DNA of 64,000 bases from Streptomyces sp. NBC_00654 (GTDB lineage Bacteria; Actinomycetota; Actinomycetes; Streptomycetales; Streptomycetaceae): assembly GCF_026341775.1 (NCBI RefSeq), contig NZ_JAPEOB010000002.1, forward strand, positions 2,542,001-2,606,000, given 5' to 3'. Each line of letters begins with the position of its first letter. Position 1 is the first letter of the stretch. Both the position numbers and the translations under genes were made by a program. Below the pieces are notes generated by a model. It saw nothing but the letters and a program-made list of their open reading frames with translations. It ran no database searches and was not told where the DNA came from. This document shows positions 3,548 through 41,600 of this stretch, piece by piece.

Positions 3548-3552
3548 GATTG

Positions 3553-3625
3553 TGGAGCTAAGGAGAATTGAACTCCTGACCTCCTGCATGCCATGCAGGC
3601 GCTCTACCAACTGAGCTATAGCCCC
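3553..3625 (-). tRNA. tRNA-Ala (anticodon GGC), copy 2
   Basis: Identical over all 73 nt to the gene at 2694-2766, with the same GGC anticodon loop and no encoded CCA. The flanks are different except for short similarity on the 5' side (TGTCCGC and TTTCCC blocks), consistent with an old local duplication. It has its own terminator hairpin. Confidence 0.97.
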
Positions 3626-25022: not shown

Positions 25023-25343
25023 TTACTTCGCAGCCGCGGGGATACCGGTGACCTTGATCGCCGTGTACTGCTGGCGGTGACCCTGGCGACGGCGGTAGCC
25101 GGTCTTGTTCTTGTAGCGAAGGATGTCGATCTTCGCGCCCTTGTGGTGGTCCACGATCTCGGCCTGGACCTTGATCCCGGCCAGGACCCACGGGTCGCTG
25201 GTGACGGCGTCGCCGTCGACCACGAGCAGCGTAGAGAGCTCTACGGTGTCGCCGACCTGGGCGGTGGGAATCTTGTCAACCTCAACGATGTCGCCGACAG
25301 CAACCTTGTGCTGGCGACCACCGCTGCGCACGATGGCGTACAC
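25023..25343 (-). CDS. rplU: 50S ribosomal protein bL21
   Basis: 106 residues from GTG 25343, matching the family's [13 protein letters not shown] start. The [22 protein letters not shown]-terminal block is typical of bL21, which binds 23S rRNA. A longer in-frame extension upstream exists but has no family support. It is the first gene of the rplU-rpmA-(obgE) operon. Upstream lies a 13-kb glycan island rather than the usual neighbour rne. Confidence 0.98.
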
Positions 25344-25680: not shown

Positions 25681-26283
25681 GTGAACTACAGGGTCCAGCC
25701 CACCGCCCAGGTCGACGAGACCGCCGAGATCGGCGACGGCAGCAGCGTCTGGGAGCTCGCCCAGATCCGTGAGCGGGCCCGCCTCGGCAAGGGCTGCGTC
25801 ATCGGCCGGGGCGCCTACGTCGGCACCGGCGTGCGGATCGGCGACAACGTCAAGCTCCAGAACTACGCCCTGGTGTACGAGCCCGCCGAGCTCGGCGACG
25901 GCGTCTTCGTCGGCCCCGCCGTCGTCCTCACCAACGACCACAACCCGCGCTCCGTCGACCCCGAGGGCAACCAGAAGCGCGGCGGCGACTGGGAGGCCGT
26001 CGGTGTGAAGGTGGCCGAGGGCGCGTCGCTCGGCGCGCGCTCCGTCTGCGTGGCTCCGGTGCGGATCGGGCGCTGGGCGATGGTGGCGGCCGGCGCGGTG
26101 GTCACCAAGGACGTGGCGGACTTCGCCCTGGTGGTGGGCGTACCGGCGCGGCAGATCGGCTGGGTGGGCCGCAGCGGGGTGCGCCTGGTGGAGCGCGTCG
26201 GCGAGCCGGGCGTCTGGGAGTGCCCGCAGAGCGGTGCGGTGTACGAGGAGAAGGACGGGGTTCTCGGCGAGCGAGCCGCGTAA
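25681..26283 (+). CDS. Left-handed beta-helix acetyltransferase (WbpD/WlbB-like)
   Basis: 200 residues of hexapeptide-repeat sugar acetyltransferase: PTAQVDETAEIGDGSSVWELAQI, GKGCVIGRGAYVGTGVRIGDNVKLQNYALVYEP arranged as repeats, the PAVVLTNDHNPRS loop, then VAPVRIGRWAMVAAGAVVTKDV and VVGVPARQIGWVG. The NDHNPRS loop and PARQIGWV ending are typical of WbpD/WlbB, which N-acetylates the 3-amino group of UDP-GlcNAc3NA. GTG start with GGAAGG upstream. Partners with matching chemistry lie at 33.2-38.3 kb and 29.4 kb. The acetyl-CoA-dependent role in UDP-ManNAc3NAcA synthesis is an inference from family plus context. Confidence 0.88.
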   Translation: MNYRVQPTAQVDETAEIGDGSSVWELAQIRERARLGKGCVIGRGAYVGTGVRIGDNVKLQNYALVYEPAELGDGVFVGPAVVLTNDHNPRSVDPEGNQKRGGDWEAVGVKVAEGASLGARSVCVAPVRIGRWAMVAAGAVVTKDVADFALVVGVPARQIGWVGRSGVRLVERVGEPGVWECPQSGAVYEEKDGVLGERAA

Positions 26284-26364
26284 CCGGTGCGAGGCGGGTC
26301 GCCTTTCGATCTCGATCCGACGTGTTCCACCTAGAAAGCGACACGTTCGGCCGAGGATGAGGCA

Positions 26365-27516
26365 GTGAACTCTCCTTCTCTGTCTGCCAAGACCGATGCT
26401 CACCCGCCGGACAAGGCGCGACCGGAGATTCCGGCCCCCGGTGCCGCCTCCGGTGACGGCGGCGGCACCCCCAGGACCCCGGCGCCACGGCTCTACGCGC
26501 TCGACGCGCTGCGGGTCGTGGCGGCGCTGGCCGTTCTCGCCTTCCACTTCGCGGGGATCGACAAGGCGACCGCGGTCAACTGGGGCGAGAGCCCCCGCGA
26601 GCTGTTCCCCTGGCTCTTCCCCTTCGCCAAGTACGGCTCCTACGGCGTCCAGCTCTTCTTCATCATCAGCGGCTTCGTGATCTGTCTGTCGGCCTGGGGC
26701 CGGACCCCGGGGCAGTTCGTCCGCGCCCGGTTCCTGCGGCTCTTTCCCGCCTACTGGTTCTCGGTGGTCGTCGCCCTCGCGCTGTACCGGCTGCTGCCGG
26801 ACCCGGTCCGCGAGTCCCCCAGCTTCAGCGACGCCCTGACGAACCTGACGATGTTCCAGGTGCCCCTGAAGGCACAGCACATGGTCGGTGCCTACTGGAC
26901 GCTCTGGCTGGAGCTCTGCTTCTACCTGGTCTTCCTGGTCGTGCTGATCAAGGAGATCGACTTCCAGCGCGTGTACATCTTCTGCTGGTCGTGGCTGATC
27001 CTGTCCGTGCTGCTCCAGCAGGGCCCCGCCGTACCGCTCCTCACCACGCTGGCCCCCGCGCTGAACACCTCGCTGTTCGTCGCCGGGATCACCATGTACC
27101 TGATGTACCGCTTCGGGCCCGGCCTTAAGCTGTGGCTGCTCCTCGGCATGAGCTGGCTGACCATGCAGAGCGACCTCGTGGAACACGGGGACCGGCTGCG
27201 GGACGACCTGGGGTTCGACCGCAGCCCGTATGTGGCCCTGGCCGTGGTGACGGTCTCCTATCTCCTGGTGCTCGCGGTGGCGCTGCACCGGCTCGACGGG
27301 GTGCGGTGGCGCTGGCTGGCCACGGCGGGGGCGCTGGTGTACCCGCTGTACCTGCTCCACGAGGAGCTGGGCTGGGCCCTGATCCGTACCCTCCACGGGC
27401 ACCTGGGCGCATGGCCCACGCTGGCCGTCACCGTGCTGGTTCTGCTGGTGCTGTCCTGGCTGGTGCACCGCTGCGTGGAGCGGCCCTCGGTCCGCTGGCT
27501 GCGTACAAAGCTGTGA
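26365..27516 (+). CDS. Acyltransferase-3 family membrane protein
   Basis: 383 residues, with about ten hydrophobic helices after a disordered 40-residue N-terminus. It has the family's N-terminal LDALRVVAALAVLAFH, the YGVQLFFIISGFVI motif with FVRARFLRLFPAYW, the WTLWLELCFYLVFLV segment and the ending RPSVRWLRTKL. These enzymes move acetyl or other acyl groups to sugars, usually O-acetylation of wall or exported glycans. GTG 26365 has GAGGATGAGG upstream. Start 81 bases after the WbpD-like gene, so they are one operon. Possible role: O-acylation of the polymer encoded by this island. Confidence 0.9.
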   Translation: MNSPSLSAKTDAHPPDKARPEIPAPGAASGDGGGTPRTPAPRLYALDALRVVAALAVLAFHFAGIDKATAVNWGESPRELFPWLFPFAKYGSYGVQLFFIISGFVICLSAWGRTPGQFVRARFLRLFPAYWFSVVVALALYRLLPDPVRESPSFSDALTNLTMFQVPLKAQHMVGAYWTLWLELCFYLVFLVVLIKEIDFQRVYIFCWSWLILSVLLQQGPAVPLLTTLAPALNTSLFVAGITMYLMYRFGPGLKLWLLLGMSWLTMQSDLVEHGDRLRDDLGFDRSPYVALAVVTVSYLLVLAVALHRLDGVRWRWLATAGALVYPLYLLHEELGWALIRTLHGHLGAWPTLAVTVLVLLVLSWLVHRCVERPSVRWLRTKL

Positions 27517-27536
27517 CCCCGTGCGGACTGCGTGAG

Positions 27537-27574
27537 GAAGGGCCCCGCACCGGTTTTCCGGTGCGGGGCCCTTC
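27537..27574. terminator. Bidirectional terminator between acyltransferase and GT4 gene
   Basis: A 17-base-pair perfect stem, GAAGGGCCCCGCACCGG with its complement, and a TTTT loop, between two convergent genes (stops at 27516 and 27602). It can serve both strands. Confidence 0.85.
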
Positions 27575-27601
27575 TCGTGTCGGGTCAGCCGGAGCAGGGG
27601 C

Positions 27602-29209
27602 TCACGCGTGGGCGTCCGTCCGGGTCTCCGAGGCCGCCGCGGGCACCTTGGGGCGGTCCGGCAGCAGACGGCTGTAGATGCCGTCGAGGACCTCGGCCTG
27701 CGCCTCCCAGGTCCACTTCTCCAGCAGCCCCGGCTTGTCGTAGGCGGCCCGGTAGCGCTCGGGGTCGGCCAGCACGGCCTTCACCGCCCGGACGTAGTCC
27801 TCGGTGTCCTGGGCGCGGAAGACCTCGCCCTGGCCCGTCGACTCGACCATCTCGGACATCGTGCGGATGTCGCTGACGATCTGCGGGAGCCTGGCCTGCG
27901 AGTACTCGAAGAACTTGTTGCTCAGCGCCAGCTCGTGGTTGGCCAGGTGATGGAGCGGGCTGACGGCCGCGTCGGCCGGGGCCACGAACTCGGCGACCTG
28001 CCAGTGCGGGACGAACGGCAGGAAGTGCACCCGGTCGCCGACCCCCAGCTCGTCGACGAGCTTGCGGATCGTGGCGGTCGCCGCGTACGGCTTGCCCGGC
28101 GGCACGGAGACCATCGCGACATGCACGTCCGGCATGCGGGTGAGGCCCTCGATGATCGTCTCGACCCCGCGGACCGGGTTGATGCCACCGACGTACGCGA
28201 GGAGCGGGGTGTCCGCGCCGACGCCGCACAGCTCCCGCAGGTCCGGTACGGGGTCGGCTCCGGCGACCTCGTCCGCGCCCGGGGAGAGCACCGGGGCGTT
28301 CAGCACGACCGTCGGCAGTACGGACAGGCCGTGGCCCTCCTTGAGCAGCTCCGCCAGGGCCGGGGAGACCGTGATCACCGCGTCGGCGAACACGGCGTGC
28401 TCCTTCTCCCACGCCACATGGCCGGGCAGCCAGCGGCCGTGCCGCGGGGGCAGGCCGGGGACGTACTCATGGGCGTCCCAGACCAGCTTCACGGGCCGGC
28501 CGGCCGCGCGGGCGCGCACGGCGGCGCGGGCGCCGACGCCGAGCATCTTGAAGTCGTGGGCGTGGATCAGGTCGGGCTTCAGCGCGTCGATGTGCTTGGC
28601 GAAGGCCAGCTCGAAGTCCCACAGGTTCGGCATCAGACGGCGCCAGGAGCGCTGCTTCATCAGCGTCTGCCACACGGCGGTCGTGGTCCGGTCCAGGGAG
28701 GCGTCCAGCATGGACCGGCGCTTCTGCAGGTTCGTCGTCTCGCGGGCGCGCAGCGCGACCCACTTGCTGTAGATCTTGGCGCTCACGCGCGGCACCAGCA
28801 GACGGGCCTTGGAGCCGCCCGCGCTGCGGCCCGGGTGACCTGCCCTGGCCGCCTTCTCGGCCGCCTGCCGGAAGCTCAGGTCCGAGCGCCACGCCTTGGC
28901 GGCCTGCACCCGGTAGCGCGCCACCTGGGGCGAGCGGTAGGCGAGCGGGCGGCGGGGGAACGGGCGGCGCATGTCGTGCCGGCGCGGGTTGAGCGGGGTG
29001 GGCTTGGGGATCAGCCGCACCTCGGCGCTGCCGACCTTCCAGGAGTGCTTCTCGCTGTCCGGCGAGACTCCGAACAGCACGACGTCCCAGCCGGCGTCCG
29101 CCGCGGACCGGGCCGCCTTCTGTACCCGGGAGTCACCCCTGACCCCGTTGTCGACGAGCATGACCACTCGACCCCGGGGCTTGTGCCGCGTGGTGCTTTC
29201 GGGCTCCAT
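27602..29209 (-). CDS. GT4-type glycosyltransferase
   Basis: 535 residues from ATG 29209 (GGAAAGG upstream). GT-B fold: N-terminal MLVDNGVRGDSRVQKAARSAADAGWDV-type start, long basic insertion (residues 85-170), LIHAHDFKMLG, VWDAHEYVPGLP, ITVSPALAELL, then the donor-binding half with YVGGINPVRGVETIIEG, VHFLPFVPHWQVAEFVAPADAAVSPL and the E-x7-E-like block ELALSNKFFEYSQARLPQIVSD. It is paralogous to the N-terminal half of the gene at 30578-33190. The donor sugar is not readable. It is divergent from the WbpI-like gene. Confidence 0.9.
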   Translation of the reverse strand: MEPESTTRHKPRGRVVMLVDNGVRGDSRVQKAARSAADAGWDVVLFGVSPDSEKHSWKVGSAEVRLIPKPTPLNPRRHDMRRPFPRRPLAYRSPQVARYRVQAAKAWRSDLSFRQAAEKAARAGHPGRSAGGSKARLLVPRVSAKIYSKWVALRARETTNLQKRRSMLDASLDRTTTAVWQTLMKQRSWRRLMPNLWDFELAFAKHIDALKPDLIHAHDFKMLGVGARAAVRARAAGRPVKLVWDAHEYVPGLPPRHGRWLPGHVAWEKEHAVFADAVITVSPALAELLKEGHGLSVLPTVVLNAPVLSPGADEVAGADPVPDLRELCGVGADTPLLAYVGGINPVRGVETIIEGLTRMPDVHVAMVSVPPGKPYAATATIRKLVDELGVGDRVHFLPFVPHWQVAEFVAPADAAVSPLHHLANHELALSNKFFEYSQARLPQIVSDIRTMSEMVESTGQGEVFRAQDTEDYVRAVKAVLADPERYRAAYDKPGLLEKWTWEAQAEVLDGIYSRLLPDRPKVPAAASETRTDAHA

Positions 29210-29382
29210 GTACGCGCCTTTCCTGATAGCCGCCGTCACGGCCTTCTCCCCGCCGCAGACATACCGCAGCCAGCGAGCATACCGGCCCCCCGGGACCCTG
29301 CGGTGACCGTGCCCCGCAAGGCTCCACGTACCATCGGACCCGGCCCGCAACGGGCCCGGCAGCCTCCAAGGAGAAGAACAAC

Positions 29383-30474
29383 GTGAAGGTCCTCAGCGTC
29401 GTCGGGGCCCGGCCCCAGCTCGTGAAACTCGCCCCCATCGCCGCGGCCTTCGCCGGCACGTCCCATCAGCATGTCATCGTGCACACCGGCCAGCACTACG
29501 ACGCCGATCTGTCCGATGTGTTCTTCGACGGGCTCGGCATCCCCGCCCCGGACGTCCACCTGGGCGTGGGCTCCGGAAGCCACGGGGTGCAGACCGGAGC
29601 GGTGCTCGCCGCCATGGACAAGGTACTGGAGGACGAGCGGCCGGACTGGGTCCTGGTCTACGGGGACACCAACTCCACCGTCGCCGGCGCGCTGTCCGCG
29701 GTGAAGATGCACCTGCCGGTCGCCCACCTCGAAGCGGGCCTGCGCTCGTTCAACCGCCGGATGCCCGAGGAGCACAACCGGGTCCTCACCGACCACTGCG
29801 CCGACCTGCTGCTCGCCCCCACCGAGGAGGCCATGCGCCACCTGGCCAACGAGGGCCTGGCCGGGCGTTCCCGGCTCGCGGGTGACGTGATGGTCGACAT
29901 CTGCCTGCGCATCCGTGACGCGGTGGCCGCCGGGGAGCACCCCGCACCGGCCCTGCCCGAGGGCATCGACCCGGCAGCGCCGTTCCTGCTCGCCACGCTC
30001 CACCGGCCGGACAACACCGACGACCCGGAGCGGCTGTCGGCGATCCTTGCCTCGCTGGCCGCGCTTCCGGTGCCGGTGGCGCTGCTCGCGCACCCGCGTC
30101 TGGTGGCGCGCGCCGAGGAGCACGGCATCAAGCTGGAGCAGGGCAACCTGCACGTCGGCCGCCCGCTGCCGTACGCCGGTCTGGTCGCCGCCGTGGTGGC
30201 CTCGGCCGGTGTGGTCACCGACTCGGGCGGTCTCCAGAAGGAGGCGTTCCTGCTCGGCCGGGCGTGCACCACGGTCCGCCCGGAGACGGAGTGGGTGGAG
30301 ACCCTGGAGGGCGGCTGGAACGTCCTCGTCCCGGACCCGCACGAGCTGCCCGCGGACGAGTTCGCGGCGCTGGCGACCCGCCCGGCCCCGGAGACCGAGC
30401 GCGGTACGCCCTACGGCGAGGGCACCGCGGCCGTACGGGTCGTGGAGCTGATGGAGGAGGCGCTGCGCGGCTGA
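29383..30474 (+). CDS. UDP-GlcNAc(3NAcA) 2-epimerase, WecB/WbpI-like
   Basis: 363 residues of the non-hydrolysing UDP-GlcNAc 2-epimerase family: VVGARPQLVKLAPI, HTGQHYD, VYGDTNSTVAGALSA, HLEAGLRSFNRRMPEEHNR, GDVMVD, TLHRPDNTDD, and VVTDSGGLQKEAF. ATG 29383 after AAGGAGAAG. Family members act either on UDP-GlcNAc (WecB) or on UDP-GlcNAc3NAcA (WbpI/WlbD). Because all four other enzymes of the second pathway are in the same island, the WbpI-type role is preferred, but residues cannot settle it by eye. Confidence 0.92.
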   Translation: MKVLSVVGARPQLVKLAPIAAAFAGTSHQHVIVHTGQHYDADLSDVFFDGLGIPAPDVHLGVGSGSHGVQTGAVLAAMDKVLEDERPDWVLVYGDTNSTVAGALSAVKMHLPVAHLEAGLRSFNRRMPEEHNRVLTDHCADLLLAPTEEAMRHLANEGLAGRSRLAGDVMVDICLRIRDAVAAGEHPAPALPEGIDPAAPFLLATLHRPDNTDDPERLSAILASLAALPVPVALLAHPRLVARAEEHGIKLEQGNLHVGRPLPYAGLVAAVVASAGVVTDSGGLQKEAFLLGRACTTVRPETEWVETLEGGWNVLVPDPHELPADEFAALATRPAPETERGTPYGEGTAAVRVVELMEEALRG

Positions 30475-30495
30475 CCGAGGCCAACCGGCGTACGA

Positions 30496-30535
30496 GAAGG
30501 GGCTCCCCGGCCGACTGCGGCCGGGGAGCCCCTTC
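30496..30535. terminator. Bidirectional terminator between epimerase and double-GT gene
   Basis: 18-base-pair perfect stem (GAAGGGGCTCCCCGGCCG with its complement) with a four-base loop, between the convergent stops at 30474 and 30578. Confidence 0.85.
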
Positions 30536-30577
30536 TGTCATGTCCTCGCGCGAAGACGGGCGTCCTCGCGGTGCCGG

Positions 30578-33190
30578 TCAGCGCCTCAGGAAACCGTCCA
30601 GGGCGCGGGCCGTGGCGGTGCCGTCGTGGTACTCCCGTGCGAACGCGGCCGACTCGGCGCCGATCCGGGCCGTGCCCTCACGGTCGGCGAGCAGCGCCTC
30701 CATGACCGAGTCCAGCGTCTCCGGGGTGGCGTTGACGATCGGCGGGGTCACTCCGCACGCCGCGATCGACTCCTTGTCGAGGTGGGCGACCACCGGCTTG
30801 CCGGCGGCCATGCCCTCGCAGGCGAACGTCCCGTACGTACCGATGGCGAACTGGTCGACGATGATGTCCGCCTCCATCACCATCTCCCGGACCGTGGCCC
30901 AGGAGACCTTCTCGGCCAGCCGGAAATCGATCAGGCCCCGGTCGTGGAGGTCCTGGAGCACCGGCAGCACCCGGTCGGTGCCCTTGGTCCAGCGCGCCGA
31001 GGGGGCGTGCAGGACGACAGGGCGTTCGCGCTGCATCACCGGCCGGTCGCAGGCCCATGCCTCGACGTCCACGACGAGCGGCGCCCAGGTGGCCATCGGC
31101 AGGTCCAGCAGCAGGTCGGGCGTGGTGACGAAGACCGGCAGCCCGCTCTCCCGCGCGATACGCCGGTTCCGCTCCGCGATCGCCGCCAGCTTGTCCTCGT
31201 AGCCCTCGGGGGCGTCGAGGAAGAGGGAGTACGGGTTGCGCTTCCGGTGCTGTGCGGGGTCGCGCACCTCACTGCCGTGGGCGAGCAGCGCGACCTTCAG
31301 CCCGCCGTTGAGGAGCGCGGGCAGGTCGCCCTCGATGCTGTCGCCGTTCAGTCCGCCGAAGACGGGGCGGAAGGCGTCGGCGATGAGGTGCGTGTAGCGC
31401 GGCACGATCCGCTGCACCTGTTCGAGCTGCACATCGAGGTTCTTGAGGGACTTGCCGTCGACATAGACGTCGGCCGGGTACTCGTGCGTCTGCGCGGTGC
31501 GGTGCTTGACCACTTCCGCCGAGACGTCGGAGCGCTCACGGGTGACTGCCTGCGCGAAGGCGGCGAGCTGCCCGGCGTAGTTGGCCGGGCCCAGACCGAG
31601 CTTGACCGGGGTCTTGCCGAGCGGCGTCCAGCCCCGCTCCAGCTCCTCGCGCGGCTCCTCGTCCTCCTCGGTGTCGGTGACGGCGCGCTCGACGGCTCCC
31701 CAGGAGAAGCCCGCCGCGGGCGCGGGCGGGGTGAGGCCCGAGATCTCGCTGTAGAGCGCCATCAGGCCCTCGCACTGATGCTCCCAGGAGAGCTCGGTGA
31801 GGATGGGCTCGGTGATGTGCTCCTTCATCTCCGCGACACCGGCGATGCCACGGGTGACGGCCTCGACGAACGAGGCGGCGTCGCCGGAGACGAACACCTC
31901 GCCGACGCCGTGCTCCCGTACGAACGCGCTGAGGGTCTTCACATCGCTGGCGATGATCGGCAGCCCCGCGTGCAGGTACTCGGCCGTCTTGGTCGGCAGG
32001 GACAGCTCGTAGTTGATCGTCCGCTGGGAACAGATCAGACCGAGGTCCGCGGTGGAGAGGTAGTCCGCCACCTCGTGCTGGGCCACGTAGGGAACCACAT
32101 GGATGCGGTCCCGTACGCCGGTCTCCTCGGCGAGTTCCAGCAGTCTGACCAGCTCCGGGCTGCGCTTGCCCGCGACGACCGCGAGGTGGTAGCCGGGCAG
32201 CCCGGCCAGACCCTCCACCGCGGTGCCGAGCCCGCGTTCGGAGGAGATCCAGCCGGAGTACACGAGCAGCGGGACGCTGTCGTCGAGGCCGCAGGCCTGC
32301 CGGACCGACACGCGCCCGGCGGCGCCGCCGATGGTCTCGCGGATCGGGGTGTTGCGGACCACGAGGGGCGTCTTCGCCAGTGCGTAGTCCTGCTGGATGA
32401 CCTCGGCGATCTCCGGGGAGACCGTCACCACGGCGTCGGCCTTGCCGATGAACTCCTTCTCCACGGCGGGGAAGGCGGTGGTCATCAGCGGCTGGGGCCA
32501 CTCGACGCCCGCGACGTACTCGTGCGCGTCGTACAGCCAGGCGCACTTGCGGCCGCTCGCCCGCAGCCGGGCGGCAGCCATGGCACCCAGGTTGATGGCG
32601 GTGATGTCGTTGGCGTGGATGACGTCCGGCGCGAGCTTCTCGATGACGGGGCCGAATGCCAGGTCCAGGTCGAGCAGGGCCGGCCAGTCCTTGCGCCAGT
32701 CGCCGGTGGGCTGCTGCTCGGGCTTGCGCCGCTGCTCCCACTTGTAGGCCTTCAGCCGCAGCTTGTGCGCGCCGCGGCGGGCCCGCACCACGGCCTTGAG
32801 CCCGACGGCAGCCGGTCCGCCGAGGGCCGTGGACTGGCTCAACCACCCGATCCTGGCGGTCTGTTCACGCACCCAGGTGCCGTGCGCGGCACGCAACTGC
32901 TCCAGTCCCGCACGGTCCTTGATGCCGAACTGCGTCAGATGCGCGCGGGCGCCGCCCTGGACGGCGCGGGCCGCCACCCGTCGCTTCATATGGGCGGCGA
33001 CCGGTACACGTACGACCTTGACCGGTCCGAACCAGGAGCGCTCGGTGTGCTTGGAAAGGCTGCGGCCGATGAGAGTGACGTCCCAGCCGGCGCGAGCAGC
33101 GGCGAGCGCCGTCTTCTGCACCCGGGAGTCCCCAGTGATGCCGTTGGCGACGATGACGGCAAGTTTGGGGCGGGCGACAGATGTTGACAT
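30578..33190 (-). CDS. Fusion of two glycosyltransferases (GT4 + GT-B-like)
   Basis: 870 residues from ATG 33190 (AAGGA upstream). Residues 1-510 form a GT4-like enzyme: VANGITGDSRVQKTALAAA, VIHANDITAINLG, YDAHEYVAGVEW, VTVSPEIAEVIQ, VYSGWISSERGLGTAVEG, and NYELSLPTKTAEYLHAGLPIIASD. A linker of about 40 acidic residues (TDTEEDEEPREELE) follows, then a second domain (about 540-870) with DVYVDGKSLK, LIADAFRPVFGGLNGD, RPVVLHAPSARWTKGTDRVLP, VDQFAIGTYGTFACEGMAAGKPVVAHLD. That is again a GT-B donor half. Two sequential sugar transfers by one polypeptide are likely. The first domain is paralogous to the gene at 27602-29209. Confidence 0.85.
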   Translation of the reverse strand: MSTSVARPKLAVIVANGITGDSRVQKTALAAARAGWDVTLIGRSLSKHTERSWFGPVKVVRVPVAAHMKRRVAARAVQGGARAHLTQFGIKDRAGLEQLRAAHGTWVREQTARIGWLSQSTALGGPAAVGLKAVVRARRGAHKLRLKAYKWEQRRKPEQQPTGDWRKDWPALLDLDLAFGPVIEKLAPDVIHANDITAINLGAMAAARLRASGRKCAWLYDAHEYVAGVEWPQPLMTTAFPAVEKEFIGKADAVVTVSPEIAEVIQQDYALAKTPLVVRNTPIRETIGGAAGRVSVRQACGLDDSVPLLVYSGWISSERGLGTAVEGLAGLPGYHLAVVAGKRSPELVRLLELAEETGVRDRIHVVPYVAQHEVADYLSTADLGLICSQRTINYELSLPTKTAEYLHAGLPIIASDVKTLSAFVREHGVGEVFVSGDAASFVEAVTRGIAGVAEMKEHITEPILTELSWEHQCEGLMALYSEISGLTPPAPAAGFSWGAVERAVTDTEEDEEPREELERGWTPLGKTPVKLGLGPANYAGQLAAFAQAVTRERSDVSAEVVKHRTAQTHEYPADVYVDGKSLKNLDVQLEQVQRIVPRYTHLIADAFRPVFGGLNGDSIEGDLPALLNGGLKVALLAHGSEVRDPAQHRKRNPYSLFLDAPEGYEDKLAAIAERNRRIARESGLPVFVTTPDLLLDLPMATWAPLVVDVEAWACDRPVMQRERPVVLHAPSARWTKGTDRVLPVLQDLHDRGLIDFRLAEKVSWATVREMVMEADIIVDQFAIGTYGTFACEGMAAGKPVVAHLDKESIAACGVTPPIVNATPETLDSVMEALLADREGTARIGAESAAFAREYHDGTATARALDGFLRR

Positions 33191-33236
33191 GCTTCAATCC
33201 TTACACGACAAACTGAGCTATCCCGGACATATTAGG

Positions 33237-34520
33237 TCAACCTCCGATAACAACGCGGCGAACACCTTCCCAGCGGGCCGGGTCCGTCGTCCGCCGCCCG
33301 TCGACCAGGACGCGGACGTCCGGCAGGTCGGCGGCGGCCAGCTCGCGGTACTCGGCGTGGTCGGCCTGGAGGACGGCCGCGGTGACGGTCTGGCCCTCGT
33401 GCGGGACGAGACCGTGCGCGGTCAGCTCCTGGGGGGTGTACATCGGGTCCGAGACGAACGGCACCGCGCCGCGCGCCTTCAGCGCCTCGACGACTCCGAA
33501 GACACCGGAGAACGCGGTCTCCTTGACCCCGCCGCGGTAGGCGGCGCCCAGCACCAGCACGCCGACGCCGTCCAGGTCGCCGTAGGCGGCGGCCAGCAGG
33601 TCCACGGCGTACTCGGGCATCGCGGCGTTGGCCTCACGGGCCGAGCGCACGACGGTCGCCTCCGGGTCGTTCCACAGGTACATCCGCGGGTAGATCGGGA
33701 TGCAGTGGCCGCCGACGGCGATTCCGGGCTGGTGGATGTGACTGTAGGGCTGGCTGTTGCAGGCCTCGATGACCTTCTTGACGTCGATGCCGCTCCGGTC
33801 GGCGAACCGGGCGAACTGGTTGGCCAGACCGATGTTGACGTCGCGGTAGGTGGTCTCGGCGAGCTTGGCGAGCTCGGAGGCCTCCGCCGTACCGAGGTCC
33901 CACACGCCGTTGGGCCGCGGCAGGTCCTCGCGCTCGTCGAAGTCGAGCACGGCCTCGTAGAACTCGACACCGTGCCGGGCGGACGCCTCGTCGATGCCGC
34001 CGACGAGCTTGGGGTAGCGGCGCAGGTCGGCGAAGACCCGGCCGGTCAGCACCCGCTCCGGGGAGAAGACCAGGTGGAAGTCCTCGCCCGGGGTGAGTCC
34101 GGAGCCCTCGGCCAGCATCGGCGCCCAGCGGGTACGGGTGGTGCCGACCGGCAGCGTGGTCTCGTAGCTCACCAGGGTGCCCGGCTTCAGCCCGGCGGCG
34201 ATCGCCTTGGTGGCGGCGTCCATCCAGCCGAAGTCCGGGGTGCCCTCGGCGTCCACGAAGAGCGGGACGACGACCACGACGGCGTCGGACGCGGCGACCG
34301 CGGCCGTGGTGTCCGTCGTCGCGGAGAGCAGACCGGCGCCCACCGTCTCCTTGAGCATGACGTCCAGGTCGTGCTCGCCGGGGAACGGCTCGGTGGCCGC
34401 GTTGACCAGCTCGACGACCTTCTCGTTGACGTCCGCGCCGATGACCGTGTGGCCCTTGGCTGCGAACTGCACGGCGAGCGGAAGTCCGATCTTGCCGAGC
34501 GCGACTACACAGATGTTCAT
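33237..34520 (-). CDS. UDP-sugar 6-dehydrogenase (WbpA-like)
   Basis: 427 residues of the UDP-Glc/GlcNAc/ManNAc dehydrogenase family. It has N-terminal Rossmann ALGKIGLPLA, FSPERVLTG, KLAETTYRDVNIGLANQFA, the catalytic cysteine C273 in GGHCIPIYPR, and VLGAAYRGGVKETAFS in the C-terminal NAD-binding-like domain. It would oxidise C6 twice, giving a uronic acid. ATG 34520, GGAAG upstream. The stop of the GT2 gene is five bases away, so it is the last of a coupled four-gene run. UDP-GlcNAc as the substrate is inferred from the neighbouring WbpB/WbpE-like genes. Confidence 0.9.
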   Translation of the reverse strand: MNICVVALGKIGLPLAVQFAAKGHTVIGADVNEKVVELVNAATEPFPGEHDLDVMLKETVGAGLLSATTDTTAAVAASDAVVVVVPLFVDAEGTPDFGWMDAATKAIAAGLKPGTLVSYETTLPVGTTRTRWAPMLAEGSGLTPGEDFHLVFSPERVLTGRVFADLRRYPKLVGGIDEASARHGVEFYEAVLDFDEREDLPRPNGVWDLGTAEASELAKLAETTYRDVNIGLANQFARFADRSGIDVKKVIEACNSQPYSHIHQPGIAVGGHCIPIYPRMYLWNDPEATVVRSAREANAAMPEYAVDLLAAAYGDLDGVGVLVLGAAYRGGVKETAFSGVFGVVEALKARGAVPFVSDPMYTPQELTAHGLVPHEGQTVTAAVLQADHAEYRELAAADLPDVRVLVDGRRTTDPARWEGVRRVVIGG

Positions 34521-34525
34521 CGGGT

Positions 34526-36145
34526 TTACTTCCTCTTCCGGCCGGACAGCTTGCGGCGCAGCCGCGCCAGCATCCCGGGCCTGGTCTCCCACAGCGGGGC
34601 CGTCGTGATCACGAGCCGGCCCTTGGTGTTCGGATTCGCGGCGACGCGATAGGGGACGGCCCGCCCCCACCGCCGCGCCAGTGGCATCGGCAGTCCGTCG
34701 GTGCGCACGGGGATCTCGTACGTCGAGCCCGCCACATCGGCGTAGACCCGCACACCCCGCTTCGCCTTGACGGGCTGGATCGGGATGCGGGCGCTCAGCA
34801 GGGTGCCCCGGCCCTCGCCCGCGGGCTCCCTGACGAACTCTCCGACCGCCTCGGGGCACCGGGCGTCCTTGGGCATCCGCAGCGCTCCCGGCTTGTCCGC
34901 GCTCTTGGGCATCGCGCCCTGCGCCAGGGCGACCACGGCCGAGGACGTGTCACCGATGATCCCGAGCCGCAGCCTCAGGGCGAGGGACAGCTCCGCCCCG
35001 TCCTGCTCCCACGCGGCCGACTCCAGCTCCGTGCTCTTCGAGAGCCTGCCCGGTACCGCCTCGCCGAGCACCTCGTAGAAGCGGTCCTCCAGGCCGACCG
35101 CGTCGTCCCGGAAGCCAGGGTAGGCGGCGAAGGCCCGCCCGCCCTCCAGGAAGAACGGCGGGGCCCCGTGCTCGGTCTCGTCCGCGATGGCGCGGCTGAG
35201 CTCCTCGACGGCACCGCGCCGGGCGAGACCGAAGCGCACCCGTCGCGTCACCCCCGTACCGTCGCGCAGGCCGTCGGTGTAGTACTCGTCCAACAAGGCG
35301 GCCAAGCCCTCGCACACCAGGCGCTTGGTGCCGGTGTCGAGGGCGGGGAAGTCCTTCTGCAGGAGCTTGGACAGCTCCCAGTCGAAGTGCCGCTTGAACA
35401 CGGCGTCGCGCTGCGGGCCCGGCTCGATGAGACCGGCCGTGTGCTTCATGATCTTCGCGGTGCACCGGAGCCGGGCCAGATGGTCGGCCCGGTAGGTGAT
35501 GTTGCTCGCGTCACCGCGCTTGACCGCGTAGTAGTACGTGTAGTCGGAGAGCACCGAGATCCTGCGGGCCCGGACGCACGCCTCGATCGTGAACGGCTGG
35601 TCACTGCCGACCGGCAGGTCCTCCGGGAACCGCAGGCCGTGCTTCTCCACCAGTTCACGGCGGAAGAGCTTGGTGTTGGCCAGCGTGAACGGAAGAGCCG
35701 AGGTGTAGAGGCTGATATCCGGATTGTTCCCGGTGTACAGCTTCTGGTGGACATAACGGCCGTTCGTCCCGACCATCTTGCCGACGACCACATCGGAGTC
35801 GTGCTTGTCGGCGCAGGCCACCATCCGTTCCAGCGCCTCTTCACCGAGGTAGTCGTCGGAACCGATGAAGTAGACATAACGCCCGGTGGCGATGTCCAGG
35901 GCCCGATTACTGGGAGCGGCCGGCCCGCCGGAATTCTCCTGGTGAATAACCTTGACCGTATCCGGATAAAGCGCCGCGAAACGGTCCAGTTCGTTACCGC
36001 TGTCGTCGGTGGACCCGTCGTCCACCGCGATCACTTCGAGCCGCTCCCGTCCGATGCTCTGTCCCACGAGCGAATTCAGACACTCGGTGAGATACGGCAT
36101 GGTGTTGTAAACGGCTACGACGACGGTGACAGCCGGTTCGGTCAA
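34526..36145 (-). CDS. Family 2 glycosyltransferase with C-terminal extension
   Basis: 539 residues. The GT-A domain is at residues 1-230: VTVVVAVYNTMPYLTECLNS, VIAVDDGSTDDSGNEL, NSGGPAAPSNRAL, YFIGSDDYLGEEALERM and SDQPFTIEACVRARR. In the DxD region the first Asp is replaced, reading GSDD. Helical and then beta-rich parts (to 539) are not recognised and may bind the polymer. Start: a TTG at 36145 whose last two bases overlap the upstream stop TGA; no better start precedes the conserved VTVVVAVYN. Paralogue of the GT2 at 17572-18810. The TTG/TGA overlap implies translational coupling. Confidence 0.86.
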   Translation of the reverse strand: MTEPAVTVVVAVYNTMPYLTECLNSLVGQSIGRERLEVIAVDDGSTDDSGNELDRFAALYPDTVKVIHQENSGGPAAPSNRALDIATGRYVYFIGSDDYLGEEALERMVACADKHDSDVVVGKMVGTNGRYVHQKLYTGNNPDISLYTSALPFTLANTKLFRRELVEKHGLRFPEDLPVGSDQPFTIEACVRARRISVLSDYTYYYAVKRGDASNITYRADHLARLRCTAKIMKHTAGLIEPGPQRDAVFKRHFDWELSKLLQKDFPALDTGTKRLVCEGLAALLDEYYTDGLRDGTGVTRRVRFGLARRGAVEELSRAIADETEHGAPPFFLEGGRAFAAYPGFRDDAVGLEDRFYEVLGEAVPGRLSKSTELESAAWEQDGAELSLALRLRLGIIGDTSSAVVALAQGAMPKSADKPGALRMPKDARCPEAVGEFVREPAGEGRGTLLSARIPIQPVKAKRGVRVYADVAGSTYEIPVRTDGLPMPLARRWGRAVPYRVAANPNTKGRLVITTAPLWETRPGMLARLRRKLSGRKRK

Positions 36146-37167
36146 CTGGCCACACCCTCGAACGGCGCGTCCAGGTCCTTCAGCGACACCGCGAGTCCGG
36201 TCGACGCCGATTCGAGCACGGCGGCGGCCACCTCCACGGTACGGAGCCCCTGGCGCAGGGTGCAGATGTCGGACGACTTCCCCTGCACGGCGTCCCGGAA
36301 CAGCTCGTGCTCGACGAGCAGCGGCTCGCGCTTCGGGATGGCGTAGCGGATCATGTCGCCCTCGGAGACCCCGCGGAACGCGCGCAGCGCCTCCCACTCG
36401 GTGGTCACCGACGCGTTCGAGTGGAACGTGAGGTCGGCGGTGAGGGTGTCGGCGATGAAGCAGCCGCGCTCACCGGTGACCGAGGTGAACCGCTCCTTGA
36501 GCGGGCTCAGCCAGTTGACCAGGTGGTTGACCATCGTGCCGTCCGAGAGCTGGCCCACGGCGGAGACCATGTCCTCGTGCGGGCGGCCGGACTTCGACAC
36601 GGTGTGGGCCGCGATCGAGTTGTACGTCTGACCGGTCACCCAGCCCGTCAGGTCGATGTCGTGGGTCGCGAGGTCCTTGACGACGCCGACGTCGGCGATC
36701 CGGTGCGGGAAGGGACCCTGACGCCGGGTGACGACCTGGTACACATCACCGAGTTCGCCGGCCTCCAGACGGCTGCGCAGCGAGCGCAGGGCCGGGTTGC
36801 AGCGTTCGATGTGGCCGACACCGGCCACCAGGCCGCGCGCCTCGAAGGCCTCGACGAGCCGGCGGGCGCCCTCCACGGTGTCCGCGAGCGGCTTCTCGAT
36901 CAGCGCGCAGACACCGGCGTCGGCGAGCTGCAGGCCGACTTCCTCGTGCAGCCCGGTGGGGCAGGCCACGACGGCGTAGTCGATGCCCAGGGCGATGAGT
37001 TCCTCGACGGTCGACAGGACGGGGGCGCCCTGCGCCCAGCCGTTCTTGTCGCCCATCGGGTCGACGACGCCGACCAGGTCCACACCCTCCAGGCCGGCGA
37101 GCACCCGGGCGTGGTGGCGGCCCATGGAGCCGAGCCCGATGAGGCCGGCCTTCAGTACGGCGCTCAC
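36142..37167 (-). CDS. Gfo/Idh/MocA-type sugar 3-dehydrogenase (WbpB-like)
   Basis: 341 residues of the Gfo/Idh/MocA family: the nucleotide motif GLIGLGSMGRHHARVL, CPTGLHEEVGLQLADAG, the ALIEKPLADT active-site lysine motif, VGHIERCNPALRSL, DLATHDIDLTGWVTG. WbpB/WlbA enzymes oxidise C3 of UDP-GlcNAcA, regenerating NADH from an internal 2-oxoglutarate cycle. The GTG start at 37167 overlaps the stop of the aminotransferase (GTGA), the usual partner in a coupled dehydrogenase-aminotransferase pair. The 3-keto product would be taken by the aminotransferase encoded just before. Specificity is inferred from context. Confidence 0.88.
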   Translation of the reverse strand: MSAVLKAGLIGLGSMGRHHARVLAGLEGVDLVGVVDPMGDKNGWAQGAPVLSTVEELIALGIDYAVVACPTGLHEEVGLQLADAGVCALIEKPLADTVEGARRLVEAFEARGLVAGVGHIERCNPALRSLRSRLEAGELGDVYQVVTRRQGPFPHRIADVGVVKDLATHDIDLTGWVTGQTYNSIAAHTVSKSGRPHEDMVSAVGQLSDGTMVNHLVNWLSPLKERFTSVTGERGCFIADTLTADLTFHSNASVTTEWEALRAFRGVSEGDMIRYAIPKREPLLVEHELFRDAVQGKSSDICTLRQGLRTVEVAAAVLESASTGLAVSLKDLDAPFEGVAS

Positions 37168-38282
37168 AGGTTCTCCCCCAGCGCGTTCACGGCGGCGGCG
37201 ATGCGCGCCAGGTCGCCCTCGGTGAGCGAGGGGTGCACCGGCAGCGAGACGACCTCGGCGGCGGCCCGCTCGGTCTCCGGCAGATCCCAGGTGCGGCCGG
37301 CCTTCTGGTCCGGCTCCCAGTAGGGCTTGAGCCGGTGGATCGGCGTCGGGTAGTAGACCGCGTTGCCGACGCCCGCCTCGGTGAGCTTCGCCATCGCGGC
37401 GTCCCGGTCGCCCCGCACCCGGATCGTGTACTGGTGGTAGACGTGACGGGCGCCCTCGGCGACCGGCGGCGTCACGACGCACGGCGCGGTGATGTGCGCG
37501 TCGAGGTACGCCGCGTTGGCACGGCGCTGCTCGGTCCAGGCGTCCAGCTTGGTCAGCTGCACCCGGCCGACGGCGGCGGACACGTCCGTCATACGCATGT
37601 TGGCGCCGACGATCTCGTTGGCGTACCGCTGCTCCATGCCCTGGTTGCGCAGCAGGCGCAGGGTGCGGGCGGTCTCCGCGTCGGCGGTGGTGACCATGCC
37701 TCCCTCCAGCGAGTGCATGTTCTTGGTGGGGTAGAAGCTGAAGGTGCCGCCCGCGCCGAACGCGCCGACGGGGGTCCCGTTCAGCGCCGCGGCGTGTGCC
37801 TGGCAGGCGTCCTCGACCACGGCGAGCTTGTGCTTGTCCGCGATGGGCATGAGCCTGTCCATCGCCGCCGGGTGACCGTAGAGGTGCACGGGCATGATCG
37901 CGGCGGTGCGCGGGGTGATCGCGGCCTCGACCGCGGCCGGGTCGAGGCCGAAGCTGCCGGGCTCGATGTCGGCGAAGACGACGTCGGCGCCGACCAGGCG
38001 GACCGCGTTCGCGGACGCGGCGAAGGAGAAGGAGGGGACGATCACCTCGTCGCCCGGACCGATGCCCAGGGCGAGCAGCAGCAGGTGAAGTGCCGAGGTG
38101 CCCGAGTTGACGGCGACACAGTGCCGGCCGTCGACCAGGTCCGAGAAGCCTTCCTCGAAGGCCGCGACCTCGGGCCCCTGCACCACGCGGCCGCTGCGCA
38201 GTACGCGTACCGCGGCCTCGATCTCGTCTTCCCCGATGACCGGGCGGGCAGCAGGAATCGGCTGCTCGTTGATGCTCGTCAT
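37164..38282 (-). CDS. DegT/DnrJ/EryC1/StrS aminotransferase (WbpE-like)
   Basis: 372 residues of the PLP sugar aminotransferase family. ATG 38282 preceded by AAGGAGG. Motifs: VVQGPEVAAFEEGF, VNSGTSALHLLLLALGIGPGDEVIVPSFSF, VVEDACQAHAA with the PLP-binding Asp 158, the Schiff-base lysine K187 in FYPTKNMHSLEGG, GANMRMTDVSAAVGRVQL and PTPIHRLKPY. It would transfer an amino group to C3 of the 3-keto uronic sugar nucleotide. First gene of a coupled four-gene run (aminotransferase, oxidoreductase, GT2, 6-dehydrogenase). Confidence 0.92.
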   Translation of the reverse strand: MTSINEQPIPAARPVIGEDEIEAAVRVLRSGRVVQGPEVAAFEEGFSDLVDGRHCVAVNSGTSALHLLLLALGIGPGDEVIVPSFSFAASANAVRLVGADVVFADIEPGSFGLDPAAVEAAITPRTAAIMPVHLYGHPAAMDRLMPIADKHKLAVVEDACQAHAAALNGTPVGAFGAGGTFSFYPTKNMHSLEGGMVTTADAETARTLRLLRNQGMEQRYANEIVGANMRMTDVSAAVGRVQLTKLDAWTEQRRANAAYLDAHITAPCVVTPPVAEGARHVYHQYTIRVRGDRDAAMAKLTEAGVGNAVYYPTPIHRLKPYWEPDQKAGRTWDLPETERAAAEVVSLPVHPSLTEGDLARIAAAVNALGENL

Positions 38283-38612: not shown

Positions 38613-41600
38613 TCAACTGCCGGACTCCGTGCCCTCCGCTGACGGCGCCGAAGCGGTCACGGAAGGCGACGACTGCTCTGCGGCGACCGTCTTCTTCGTG
38701 GCCTTCTTCGCCGTCGTCTTCTTCGCGGTGGTCTTCTTGGCGGCCGTCTTCTTCGCGGCGGTCTTCGCAGCCGTCTTCGTGGCGGCGGCCTTCTTGGCCG
38801 GCGCCTTCTTGGCGGTCTTGCGTGCCGTCTTCTTCGCCGGCGCCTCGGCGGCCTGGGCCTCCGCAGCCGGTGCGTCGGCGGCAGGTGCCTCGGCGGCGGG
38901 TGCCCCGGACGCGGGGGTACCGGTCACGACCACGACCGCCTGCTCCTCGGCACCCGCGGGCGAGCCCGCCGGAGCGGTGACCTTACGGGTCACCCGGCGC
39001 CGGGCACGCGGCGGGGCGGCCGGGGCCTCGGTGACCTCGGGCGCGGGCGCCTCGACGACCGGGTCCTCGGCGGCGACCGGCTCCGCGGTGGGCTCGGCCG
39101 GCCGGACCGGCTCCGCCGCCTCGGCCTGCTTCGGCGAACCCGCCGGGGCGGACGCCTTCCGGATCGCACGGCGACGCGTCCGGCCCTGCGGTGCCGCCTC
39201 GGCCTCGGGGGCCGCAGCGGCCACCGGGGTCTCGACGACCGGCTCGGGCCCGGCCTGCGCCTCGCTCACCGGGGCGCTCTCCGCCGGAGCGGCCTCCGCG
39301 ACCGGGGCGGTCTCCGCGACCGGCGCCGGAGCGGCGGCCTTCGGCGCTCCGGCCGGGGCCGACACCTTGCGGGTCGCACGGCGACGGCCGCGTCCACGCG
39401 TGGCGGCGGCCTCCGCCTCGGCCGGGCTGCTGTACAGCTCCTCGTCCGCGACGAACTCCGGCTCGGGCAGCGCCACCGGGGCGGCGACCTCCGCGGCCAG
39501 CTCGGCCTCGGTCTCGTCCGCGTGCTCGGCGCCGTGCTCGTGGTGCTCGGCGTACTGCTCGTGCTCGTGCTCCTGGCCCGCGCCGCCGCGGCCGCGCTTC
39601 TTGGAACGCTTGCCACCGCCGCCACCGGCGGACGTCGGCTGCTCCATGTGCACGATCACACCGCGCCCGTTGCAGTGGACGCAGGTCTCGGAGAAGGACT
39701 CCAGCAGACCCTGGCCCACCCGCTTGCGGGTCATCTGGACCAGGCCCAGCGAAGTGACCTCGGCGACCTGGTGCTTCGTACGGTCGCGGCCCAGGCACTC
39801 CAGCAGTCGCCGCAGCACCAGATCCCGGTTGGACTCCAGCACCATGTCGATGAAGTCGACGACGACGATACCGCCGAGGTCGCGCAGCCGCAGCTGACGC
39901 ACGATCTCCTCGGCCGCCTCCAGGTTGTTCTTGGTGACGGTCTCCTCAAGGTTGCCGCCCTGACCGGTGAACTTTCCGGTGTTGACGTCGACGACGACCA
40001 TGGCCTCGGTCTTGTCGATCACCAGCGAGCCGCCGCTGGGCAGGTAGACCTTGCGGTCCAGCGCCTTCATCAGCTGCTCGTCGATCCGGTACGTCGCGAA
40101 GACGTCGACCTCGGAGGTCCAGCGCGACAGGCGCTCCGTCAGGTCCGGCGCGACGTGCGAGACATAGCCGTGGATGGTCTCCCACGCGTCGTCGCCGCTC
40201 ACGATGACCTTCGAGAAGTCCTCGTTGAAGATGTCGCGGACGACCCGGACGGTCATGTCCGGCTCGCCGTAGAGCAGCGTCGGCGCGTTGGAGCTGCCGC
40301 TGTTCTTCGACTTCTTCTGGATCTCCTCCCACTGCTGCTGGAGCCGCTCGACATCACGGCGCAGCTCGTCCTCGCTCGCGCCCTCGGCGGCGGTGCGCAC
40401 GATGACGCCCGCGTCCTCGGGAACGATCTTCTTGAGGATGGTCTTCAGCCGGGACCGCTCGGTGTCGGGCAGCTTGCGGCTGATCCCGGTCATCGAGCCC
40501 TCGGGCACGTACACCAGGTAGCGGCCGGGCAGCGAGACCTGGCTGGTCAGGCGGGCGCCCTTGTGGCCGATCGGGTCCTTCGTCACCTGGACGAGGACCG
40601 ACTGGCCGGACTTGAGAGCCGTCTCGATCCGGCGCGGCCCGTGTGCCATGCCGAGCGCCTCGAAGTTGACCTCACCGGCGTACAGGACGGCGTTGCGGCC
40701 CTTGCCGATGTCGACGAAGGCGGCCTCCATGGACGGCAGAACGTTCTGCACCTTGCCCAGGTAGACGTTGCCGACGTAGCTGGTGGCCTGCTCCTTGTTG
40801 ACGTAGTGCTCGACGAGCACGTTGTCCTCGAGGACGCCGATCTGGGTGCGCTCGCCGCTCTGGCGGACGACCATCACCCGCTCGACGGCCTCGCGGCGGG
40901 CCAGGAACTCCGCCTCGGTGATGATCGGGACGCGGCGGCGGCCCTGCTCACGGCCTTCGCGGCGGCGCTGCTTCTTCGCCTCCATACGGGTCGAGCCCTT
41001 GATGGACTGGACCTCGTCGAAGCCGGTGCCGGGCTCGCGCTCTTCCTTCTTGCGGGGCTCCCGGACCTTGACGACCGTACGCTCCGGGTCGTCCTGACCG
41101 TTGTCGGCCTCGGCGGAGGCGTCACCGCTGCGACGGCGGCGGCGACGGCGGCGACGGCTGCTGCTCGAACCGGCGGCCGAGGAGTCGTTGTCCTCCTCGT
41201 CCTCCGCCTCGTCGGCGTCCTGCCCCTGGTGCTCGTCCTCGGCGGAACGCTCGGAACGCTCGGAGCGGTCGGAGCGGTCGGAGCGGTCGGCGGGTGCCTC
41301 GTCGGTGTGCTGCTCGGCGTCGTCCGCGTCGTTGGTCTCACCGCGGCGACGGCGGCGGCCACCACGACGGCGACGGCGCGAGGGCCGGTCCCCGTACTCG
41401 TCGGTGTCGTCCCCCTCGCCCTCGTGCTCGGCGTCCGCACCGGTCTCGGGCTCGTCCTGCTCGTGCGCGGGCTGCTCGACGGGCTCCTCCACCGGGGCGG
41501 CGGGAGCGGCGGTCTGCTCGGGCTCGGCGGCCTCACCGCGACGGCGGCGACGGCGGCGCGAGCCGCCCTGCGGCGCGGCCTCGGGGGCTTCGGCCTCGGC

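Follow-up and report, generated by a model that had tools for sequence, protein, structure and literature searches.

A probable utr-type teichuronic-acid locus in Streptomyces with the enzyme kinds expected for UDP-ManNAc3NAcA synthesis

The window analysed here, 64,000 nucleotides of Streptomyces sp. NBC_00654 on contig 2 of a 9.6 Mb genome, contains a nine-gene island of 12.6 kb bounded by rplU (L21; 25023..25343, minus strand, PF00829, 2.7e-32) and rne (RNase E/G; 38613..42803, minus strand, PF10150, 8.6e-102). Gene letters below follow the utr locus of S. griseus, to which the island is compared. Read inward from rne, the minus strand encodes a pyridoxal phosphate-dependent sugar aminotransferase (UtrA type, 37164..38282), a uridine diphosphate (UDP)-sugar 3-dehydrogenase (UtrB type, 36142..37167), whose gene the aminotransferase gene overlaps by 4 bases, a family 2 glycosyltransferase (GT2) with a TarS linker (UtrC type, 34526..36121), a UDP-sugar 6-dehydrogenase (UtrD type, 33237..34520), an 847-amino-acid glycosyltransferase (GT847, 30578..33121) and, further on, a 535-amino-acid GT4 glycosyltransferase (GT535, 27602..29209). 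The plus strand carries a hexapeptide-family UDP-sugar 3-N-acetyltransferase (UtrJ type, 25681..26283), a membrane acyltransferase in the UtrI position (26365..27516) and a 2-epimerase (UtrH type, 29383..30474). Each of the five sugar-enzyme genes is an uninterrupted, complete reading frame whose codon usage follows the bias of the window and whose product contains the named family domain, which bears out the original prediction that one island holds all five enzymes expected for the synthesis of UDP-2,3-diacetamido-2,3-dideoxy-D-mannuronic acid (UDP-ManNAc3NAcA). The strand layout given there was right for the two plus-strand sugar genes, but three rather than four of the five enzymes are encoded on the minus strand; in the coupled group the fourth gene (34526 to ~36121) specifies the TarS-linker glycosyltransferase and not a sugar enzyme.

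The non-hydrolysing 2-epimerase, the sole Epimerase_2 match in the genome, is on sequence comparison the strongest single evidence for the proposed pathway. Searched against all solved chains, it scored 323 bits with 8sxv, the UDP-GlcNAc3NAcA 2-epimerase of T. thermophilus (GlcNAc3NAcA being the gluco counterpart of ManNAc3NAcA), 230 bits with 4neq, a UDP-N-acetylglucosamine (UDP-GlcNAc) 2-epimerase, and 124 bits with 1f6d, which we take to be WecB of E. coli. Plain WecB is thus not its nearest relative, although the protein passes the wecB model TIGR00236 (248.6 bits against a cut-off of 210.15). In the study of the T. thermophilus HB27 enzyme (8SXV series), Trp307 in place of Arg, Tyr96 in place of His/Gln and Ala18 in place of Leu/Met are described as suiting a bulkier substrate; the replaced Arg binds the C3 hydroxyl, its position being taken by Trp in the 3-acetamido enzyme, while Ala18 is known from the one enzyme studied and need not define the family (PMC10622841). 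Trp304 and Tyr93 of the window protein align with Trp307 and Tyr96, Asp95 with the catalytic Asp98, and Leu16 with Ala18. The binding and catalytic residues Arg10, Gln12, Lys15, Asp95, Glu117, Glu129, His207, Arg208, His237, Ser281, Glu287, Arg299 and Glu303 (window numbering) are shared with the T. thermophilus enzyme. Among 110 loci compared, Trp occurs in 94 of 94 rows of the window's epimerase type and Arg in 16 of 16 weaker Streptomyces relatives (40-46%), these 16 being only part of the weak epimerase matches of the genus. The 94 rows combine 14 from a survey of 150 genomes, the window included, with 80 named loci, and species may recur in both.

The other four enzymes are of the expected reaction types. 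The best solved relative of the acetyltransferase (Hexapep) is 3mqg, 'Lipopolysaccharides biosynthesis acetyltransferase', at 149.7 bits, a lead of 64 bits over the next chain (85.5 bits). 3mqg is presumably WlbB, and through this match the enzyme falls within the WlbB/WbpD kind. The 6-dehydrogenase passes TIGR03026 (282 bits, cut-off 189.8) and scored 201 bits with 4r16 and 178 bits with Cap5O among solved chains; compared with models, it reached 241 bits with the archaeal UDP-ManNAc dehydrogenase but 122 and 76 bits with the UDP-glucose dehydrogenases AglM and TuaD. Grouping with UDP-glucose enzymes, which would have spoken against the original prediction, is therefore disfavoured by these scores, which do not fix the exact substrate. 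The aminotransferase is a DegT protein (PF01041, 9.5e-122) for which WbpE (3nyu, 231 bits) ranks seventh, six chains scoring higher with 7b0d at the top (301 bits). The 3-dehydrogenase, a GFO_IDH_MocA protein, scored 79 bits with 7bvj, presumably GnnA, and 56 bits with 3q2k, presumably WlbA, with several other oxidoreductases between them, some named inositol dehydrogenases; a six-member profile gave 97 and 73 bits, respectively. NCBIfam cut-offs are passed only by the epimerase (TIGR00236) and the 6-dehydrogenase (TIGR03026, a broad subfamily), and no listed family is passed by the acetyltransferase (best 25 of 41 families), the 3-dehydrogenase or the aminotransferase. Scores for these four enzymes thus point to reaction types rather than to substrates or an order of steps; of the labels first given to them, WbpD-like is upheld by 3mqg, while WbpA-, WbpB- and WbpE-like are not specifically supported.

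The setting of the island matches a published locus. Zhao et al. (2025, Cell) described utrA-J of S. griseus, with utrA-E and a divergent utrF-J, and used L21/L27, TarIJ and TagF as anchors and neighbours of the locus (PMC13274773). There, nuclear magnetic resonance (NMR) analysis revealed a teichuronic acid with an N-acetylgalactosamine (GalNAc)/ManNAc3NAcA repeat, linked through GlcNAc3NAcA to the ribitol phosphate of wall teichoic acid and ending in 4-O-acetyl-ManNAc3NAcA or GalNAc; the authors predict the same five biosynthetic steps and call the pathway not yet proven (PMC13274773). S. antibioticus, which is without utrE, utrF and utrH, has by NMR a GlcNAc3NAcA chain, utrG is named in both species studied, and utr loci are reported to vary widely and to include clusters without E and F (PMC13274773). 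In the window the corresponding site features are rplU at 25023, obg at 23169, TarIJ at 21320 and TagF at 14554; the TarS-like UtrC adjoins UtrA, UtrB and UtrD in the minus-strand order D-C-B-A, and UtrH and UtrJ lie on the opposite strand. A Streptomyces utr-type teichuronic-acid locus is, with high probability, the best explanation of these data. The kinds of gene, the identity of the locus and the epimerase type are established by comparison of sequences, while the addition of the first sugar, the assembly of the chain and its acetylation are proposed from the S. griseus work (PMC13274773) and from domains. Contrasting S. griseus (utrH, ManNAc3NAcA) with S. antibioticus (no utrH, GlcNAc3NAcA) supports utrH as the gluco-to-manno step (PMC13274773) and, by extension, ManNAc3NAcA is expected in the polymer of the window strain. 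The original prediction had placed the sugar in a wall or surface polymer, in agreement with the chemistry of the S. griseus locus (PMC13274773). As far as sequence can tell it was right about the pathway, but it missed both the known locus and the teichoic-acid anchor, the polymer probably being a teichuronic acid carried on ribitol wall teichoic acid.

The genes also co-occur in relatives. In 150 genomes of the genus, drawn evenly and including the window's own, utrH (at least 68%) was found in 14, utrB (at least 74%) in 30 and near full-length utrC (at least 66%) in 25; G075 (59%) and G147 (40%) were left out of the utrB count. All 14 utrH genomes are also utrB genomes, compared with 2 of the 45 that contain only other epimerases, and 16 utrB genomes do not have this utrH; the genomes counted are related and so are not independent observations. 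The utrH relative of G110 (68%) lies away from the utr site. Relatives of A, B, D and J occur in all 34 assessable Streptomyces loci, and utrC at 55% or above in 30 of them. These loci comprise the window, 27 of the 29 other utrB genomes (two, G073 and G062, are split over contigs, L089-L091, and were left out) and six Streptomyces-titled loci picked through utrH, such that B (28 loci including the window) or H (six) is present by choice, the other genes not, and species may recur between the two parts. Of the named loci, the 42 numbered L098-L139 (37 of at least 17 kb) include 32 with utrA and utrB relatives at 50% or above within the stretch, 25 of these also with J and D; among the 38 more distant ones, 13 have relatives of A, B and J at a minimum of 25% identity and 25 do not. 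In two Kribbella loci (L108 and L111), J, A, B, H, a weak match to the acyltransferase, D and a glycosyltransferase follow one another on the same strand, the layout that would be expected of a single pathway. As the genes stay together in relatives, the five-gene set is not a chance assembly.

The remainder of the locus is more variable. As scored, the accessory genes of the 34 loci form 15 combinations, some entries being weak and maybe other enzymes (the 'utrE' of L083, 29%, and 34% 'utrG' entries). A griseus-like locus, L073, stood in for S. griseus: its genes follow an order similar to that published, except that a C5-epimerase-type gene occupies the utrI place, and its letters E, F and G were given by family and position. 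The window combination, H with the acyltransferase, GT535 and GT847 and without relatives of the L073 E, F and G genes, is found in 2 of 34 loci, the window and Streptomyces sp. rh34, which is collinear with the window locus (88.5% over 19 kb). In the 150 surveyed genomes the closest relative by utrB and utrC, G019, has obg at 99% and rplU at 100%. Its identities of 91-98% for A, B, C, D, J and the acyltransferase contrast with just 54-57% for the chain-building genes, and utrH is missing. Taken with the glycosyltransferase tree described below, chain-building genes look to have been exchanged inside a fixed frame of sugar genes. The C5-epimerase-type protein of L073 (5300-6805, between utrJ and utrH) contains a D-glucuronyl C5-epimerase C-terminal domain (PF06662, 3.5e-18), has relatives in L084 (60%), L101 (55%) and L089 (41%), and may epimerise uronic acids of the finished teichuronic acid to L-gulo or L-ido sugars.

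The island encodes three glycosyltransferases. UtrC combines a GT2 domain (PF00535, 5e-29) with the TarS linker (PF22181, 3.6e-10), and GT535 contains PF00534 and PF13439. GT847 is predicted to be a tandem GT4-GT4 enzyme: its N half matches PF00534 (Glycos_transf_1) at 2.2e-17, its C half, searched as a profile, matches 3c4q ('Predicted glycosyltransferases', 2.4e-6), presumably MshA, and 10 of 10 C halves of the GT847 family match PF00534 weakly (E <= 1), that of the window at only 0.07. In a tree with several long branches, in which the rh34 GT535 row fills 31% of columns owing to a sequence cut, the window GT535 groups with the copies of rh34 and L084, both utrH-adjacent, apart from utrB-adjacent copies, and two further utrH-adjacent copies, those of L070 and L099, branch as a clade of their own; GT847 groups with the rh34 copy and an Actinoplanes protein. 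The acyltransferase (Acyl_transf_3, PF01757, 3.5e-24), whose frame opens at 26365 while the gene caller favours a start at 26518, has relatives at 70-91% in 8 other loci of the 34.

A mechanism can be proposed from these assignments. UtrD, UtrB, UtrA and UtrJ would convert UDP-GlcNAc to UDP-GlcNAc3NAcA, from which UtrH would generate UDP-ManNAc3NAcA by epimerisation at C2. UtrC, by analogy with S. griseus, would start the chain by attaching GlcNAc3NAcA to ribitol phosphate in wall teichoic acid (PMC13274773), itself made by the TarIJ/TagF genes beside obg. GT535 and GT847 would then extend it by adding ManNAc3NAcA and perhaps another sugar, and the two active sites predicted in GT847 make an alternating chain possible. 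GalNAc is not indicated as the partner, because relatives of UtrE and UtrF are absent from the locus; a 4-epimerase elsewhere in the genome, for which no search was made, could supply it. The acyltransferase may O-acetylate the free end, as the original prediction had suggested in proposing O-acylation by the gene at 26365, which fits the published 4-O-acetyl end group (PMC13274773).

By kind, the genes past obg form a set for ribitol wall teichoic acid. They encode a TarIJ-type fusion of an IspD-family cytidylyltransferase and a short-chain dehydrogenase/reductase (21320..22777, minus strand; PF01128, 6.4e-44; PF00106, 7.9e-31), probably for CDP-ribitol, which scored 163.3 bits with the D-ribitol-5-phosphate cytidylyltransferase model (cut-off 166), a weak CDP-glycerol glycerophosphotransferase-like protein (19036..21093, minus strand; PF04464, 1.6e-5), a second GT2 with a TarS linker (17572..18810, minus strand; PF22181, 1e-11; 39% to utrC) and a TagF-type polyol-phosphate polymerase (14554..17304, minus strand; PF04464, 6.8e-105). 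Elsewhere in the window two tRNA-Ala(GGC) genes lie on the minus strand, ~0.8 kb apart (2693-2766 and 3552-3625).

Several observations weigh against the assignment of the island to a utr locus making ManNAc3NAcA. Of the 16 Arg-type epimerases, 13 carry the Tyr and Ala of the 3-acetamido enzyme, so only Trp divides the two groups and two of the three published substrate markers are non-discriminating in Streptomyces. The Ala18 site is Leu in the window, as it is in every one of the 56 rows with 55% identity or more, which counts against exact equivalence with the T. thermophilus enzyme. Neither WbpB nor WbpE stands out in the scores of the 3-dehydrogenase and aminotransferase; a search of the window locus for relatives of L073 genes E, F and G gave none at E <= 1e-25; and orthology to the named S. 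griseus Utr proteins is based on family, order and site. An AlphaFold model of GT847 from a 10-row alignment (predicted local distance difference test 49, predicted template modelling score 0.29) was unusable and was not used. If the epimerase were a plain UDP-GlcNAc 2-epimerase of the WecB/MnaA type, the 6-dehydrogenase would yield UDP-ManNAcA for a ManNAcA polymer and the 3-amino genes would serve something else. Such a view draws on the passing of the wecB model, the proximity of the 6-dehydrogenase to UDP-ManNAc enzymes and the Leu at the Ala18 site, which is of the UDP-GlcNAc kind (PMC10622841). It is improbable, however, given the 323 bits with the UDP-GlcNAc3NAcA enzyme against 124 with WecB, the Trp of all 94 rows in place of the Arg seen in the 16 others examined, and the presence of the 3-oxidoreductase in all 14 genomes that have the epimerase. 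Even less probable is that the genes supply sugar for a secreted glycan or antibiotic instead of a polymer bound to teichoic acid. Antibiotic sugar pathways often include DegT and GFO/IDH enzymes, and in one Streptomyces genome (L092:10194-13834, G075) a utrJ-like acetyltransferase domain (41%), behind a carrier-protein-like domain recognized by eye, lies near a 60% utrA/utrB pair, perhaps as part of such a pathway. In the window, by contrast, the TarS-linker glycosyltransferase and the TarIJ/TagF set adjoin the sugar genes, and the same site holds wall polymer genes in S. griseus, the S. antibioticus cluster being alike (PMC13274773).

As the UtrB-type enzyme scores nearer the archaeal UDP-GlcNAc 3-dehydrogenase, the order of steps may differ from that in Pseudomonas: UtrB would oxidise C3 of UDP-GlcNAc directly (the GnnA/archaeal order), UtrA and UtrJ would give UDP-GlcNAc3NAc, and UtrD would then act at C6 before UtrH, leading to the same product. 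We place this order somewhat short of an even chance. It is favoured by the 189.8 bits of UtrB with NF040723, the archaeal UDP-GlcNAc 3-dehydrogenase model, which is matched by six of six scanned UtrB relatives, by the higher scores for 7bvj than for 3q2k, both directly and with the profile, and by a second utrA/utrB pair in the same genome (contig 1, 2705000-2724900; 73% and 69%), with no utrD relative at 1e-15 within 20 kb. On the other side, the NF040723 score is far under the cut-off of 450, several other oxidoreductases rank between 7bvj and 3q2k, the second pair could use utrD from elsewhere in the genome, and in the S. griseus paper the route is drawn as in Pseudomonas (PMC13274773). 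The 20 kb around the second pair also contain no utrH or utrJ relatives at 1e-15; by eye its neighbours resemble an LCP protein, a glycosyltransferase and Stealth phosphotransferases, and the site is present also in G065. Returning to the utr-type teichuronic acid, a tentative extension, which we consider possible but rather unlikely, is that the locus makes a third kind beyond the two solved in Streptomyces: a polymer with ManNAc3NAcA and no UtrE-made GalNAc, built by a double-GT4 protein and a matching GT4 with C3 modified before C6, its chain-building genes and utrH being exchanged as in antigen-switching loci.

In S. griseus the teichuronic acid on ribitol wall teichoic acid is the receptor of antibacterial umbrella toxins, and resistance mutations map to the utr cluster (PMC13274773). 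An umbrella toxin gene beside the window locus, as in S. griseus, was considered and dropped because the 12 ALF matches of the genome, from 150 of 262 candidates scored, lie on contigs 10 and 13 and none on contig 2. Contig 10 contains two umbrella-toxin-like ALF-repeat frames in opposite orientation with equal scores, perhaps a repeat. In another locus (L066:1064-4156) rplU and utrJ flank the gene of a 1,030-amino-acid protein containing seven ALF repeats (PF03752), which agrees with the published proximity of umb and utr genes (PMC13274773). Among the matches listed for umbrella-toxin and teichuronic-acid literature from 2024, PMC13274773 is the only one with utrC, and a search for 'dideoxymannuronic' with Streptomyces found nothing. 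The kind of locus is thus known, having been described in 2025 (PMC13274773), and the pathway itself is not new. What is particular to the window, on sequence comparison, is the pairing of conserved sugar genes with chain-building genes that differ from those of the griseus-like locus. A polymer of this kind decides the binding of umbrella toxins to a Streptomyces (PMC13274773), such that reading the sugar from the genes would allow the target range of these toxins to be forecast from a genome. The epimerase residue marker and the exchange of chain-building genes in a fixed frame make that forecast testable, and the polymer of the window strain is worth structural study.

Compared with known systems, the locus shares only its functional class, a uronic-acid wall polymer, with the tua operon of Bacillus subtilis: the window dehydrogenase has just 76 bits with TuaD, and the Utr enzymes have no significant resemblance to Tua enzymes according to the S. 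griseus authors (PMC13274773). The Wbp/Wlb systems of P. aeruginosa and Bordetella contain the same five enzyme kinds with UDP-ManNAc3NAcA as the expected product; in contrast, the window genes would serve a Gram-positive wall polymer, are split over two strands, and encode a 3-oxidoreductase, aminotransferase and dehydrogenase not specifically nearest WbpB, WbpE and WbpA. The T. thermophilus HB27 2-epimerase matches the window enzyme over nearly its full length and shares the Trp307, Tyr96 and Asp98 residues, but its Ala18 is Leu in the window and the 56 closest rows. In lacking utrH, the 16 utrB genomes noted above resemble S. antibioticus (PMC13274773). The S. griseus locus differs from the window in its utrE-like 4-epimerase and F and G genes, judged via L073, in place of which the window has the 535-amino-acid GT4 and the tandem GT4-GT4 protein, and in the umb toxin gene, which is not found next to the window utrJ; the two have in common the site (L21, TarIJ, TagF), A-B-C-D on one strand with J and H opposite, an acyltransferase and the same five kinds of sugar enzyme (PMC13274773).

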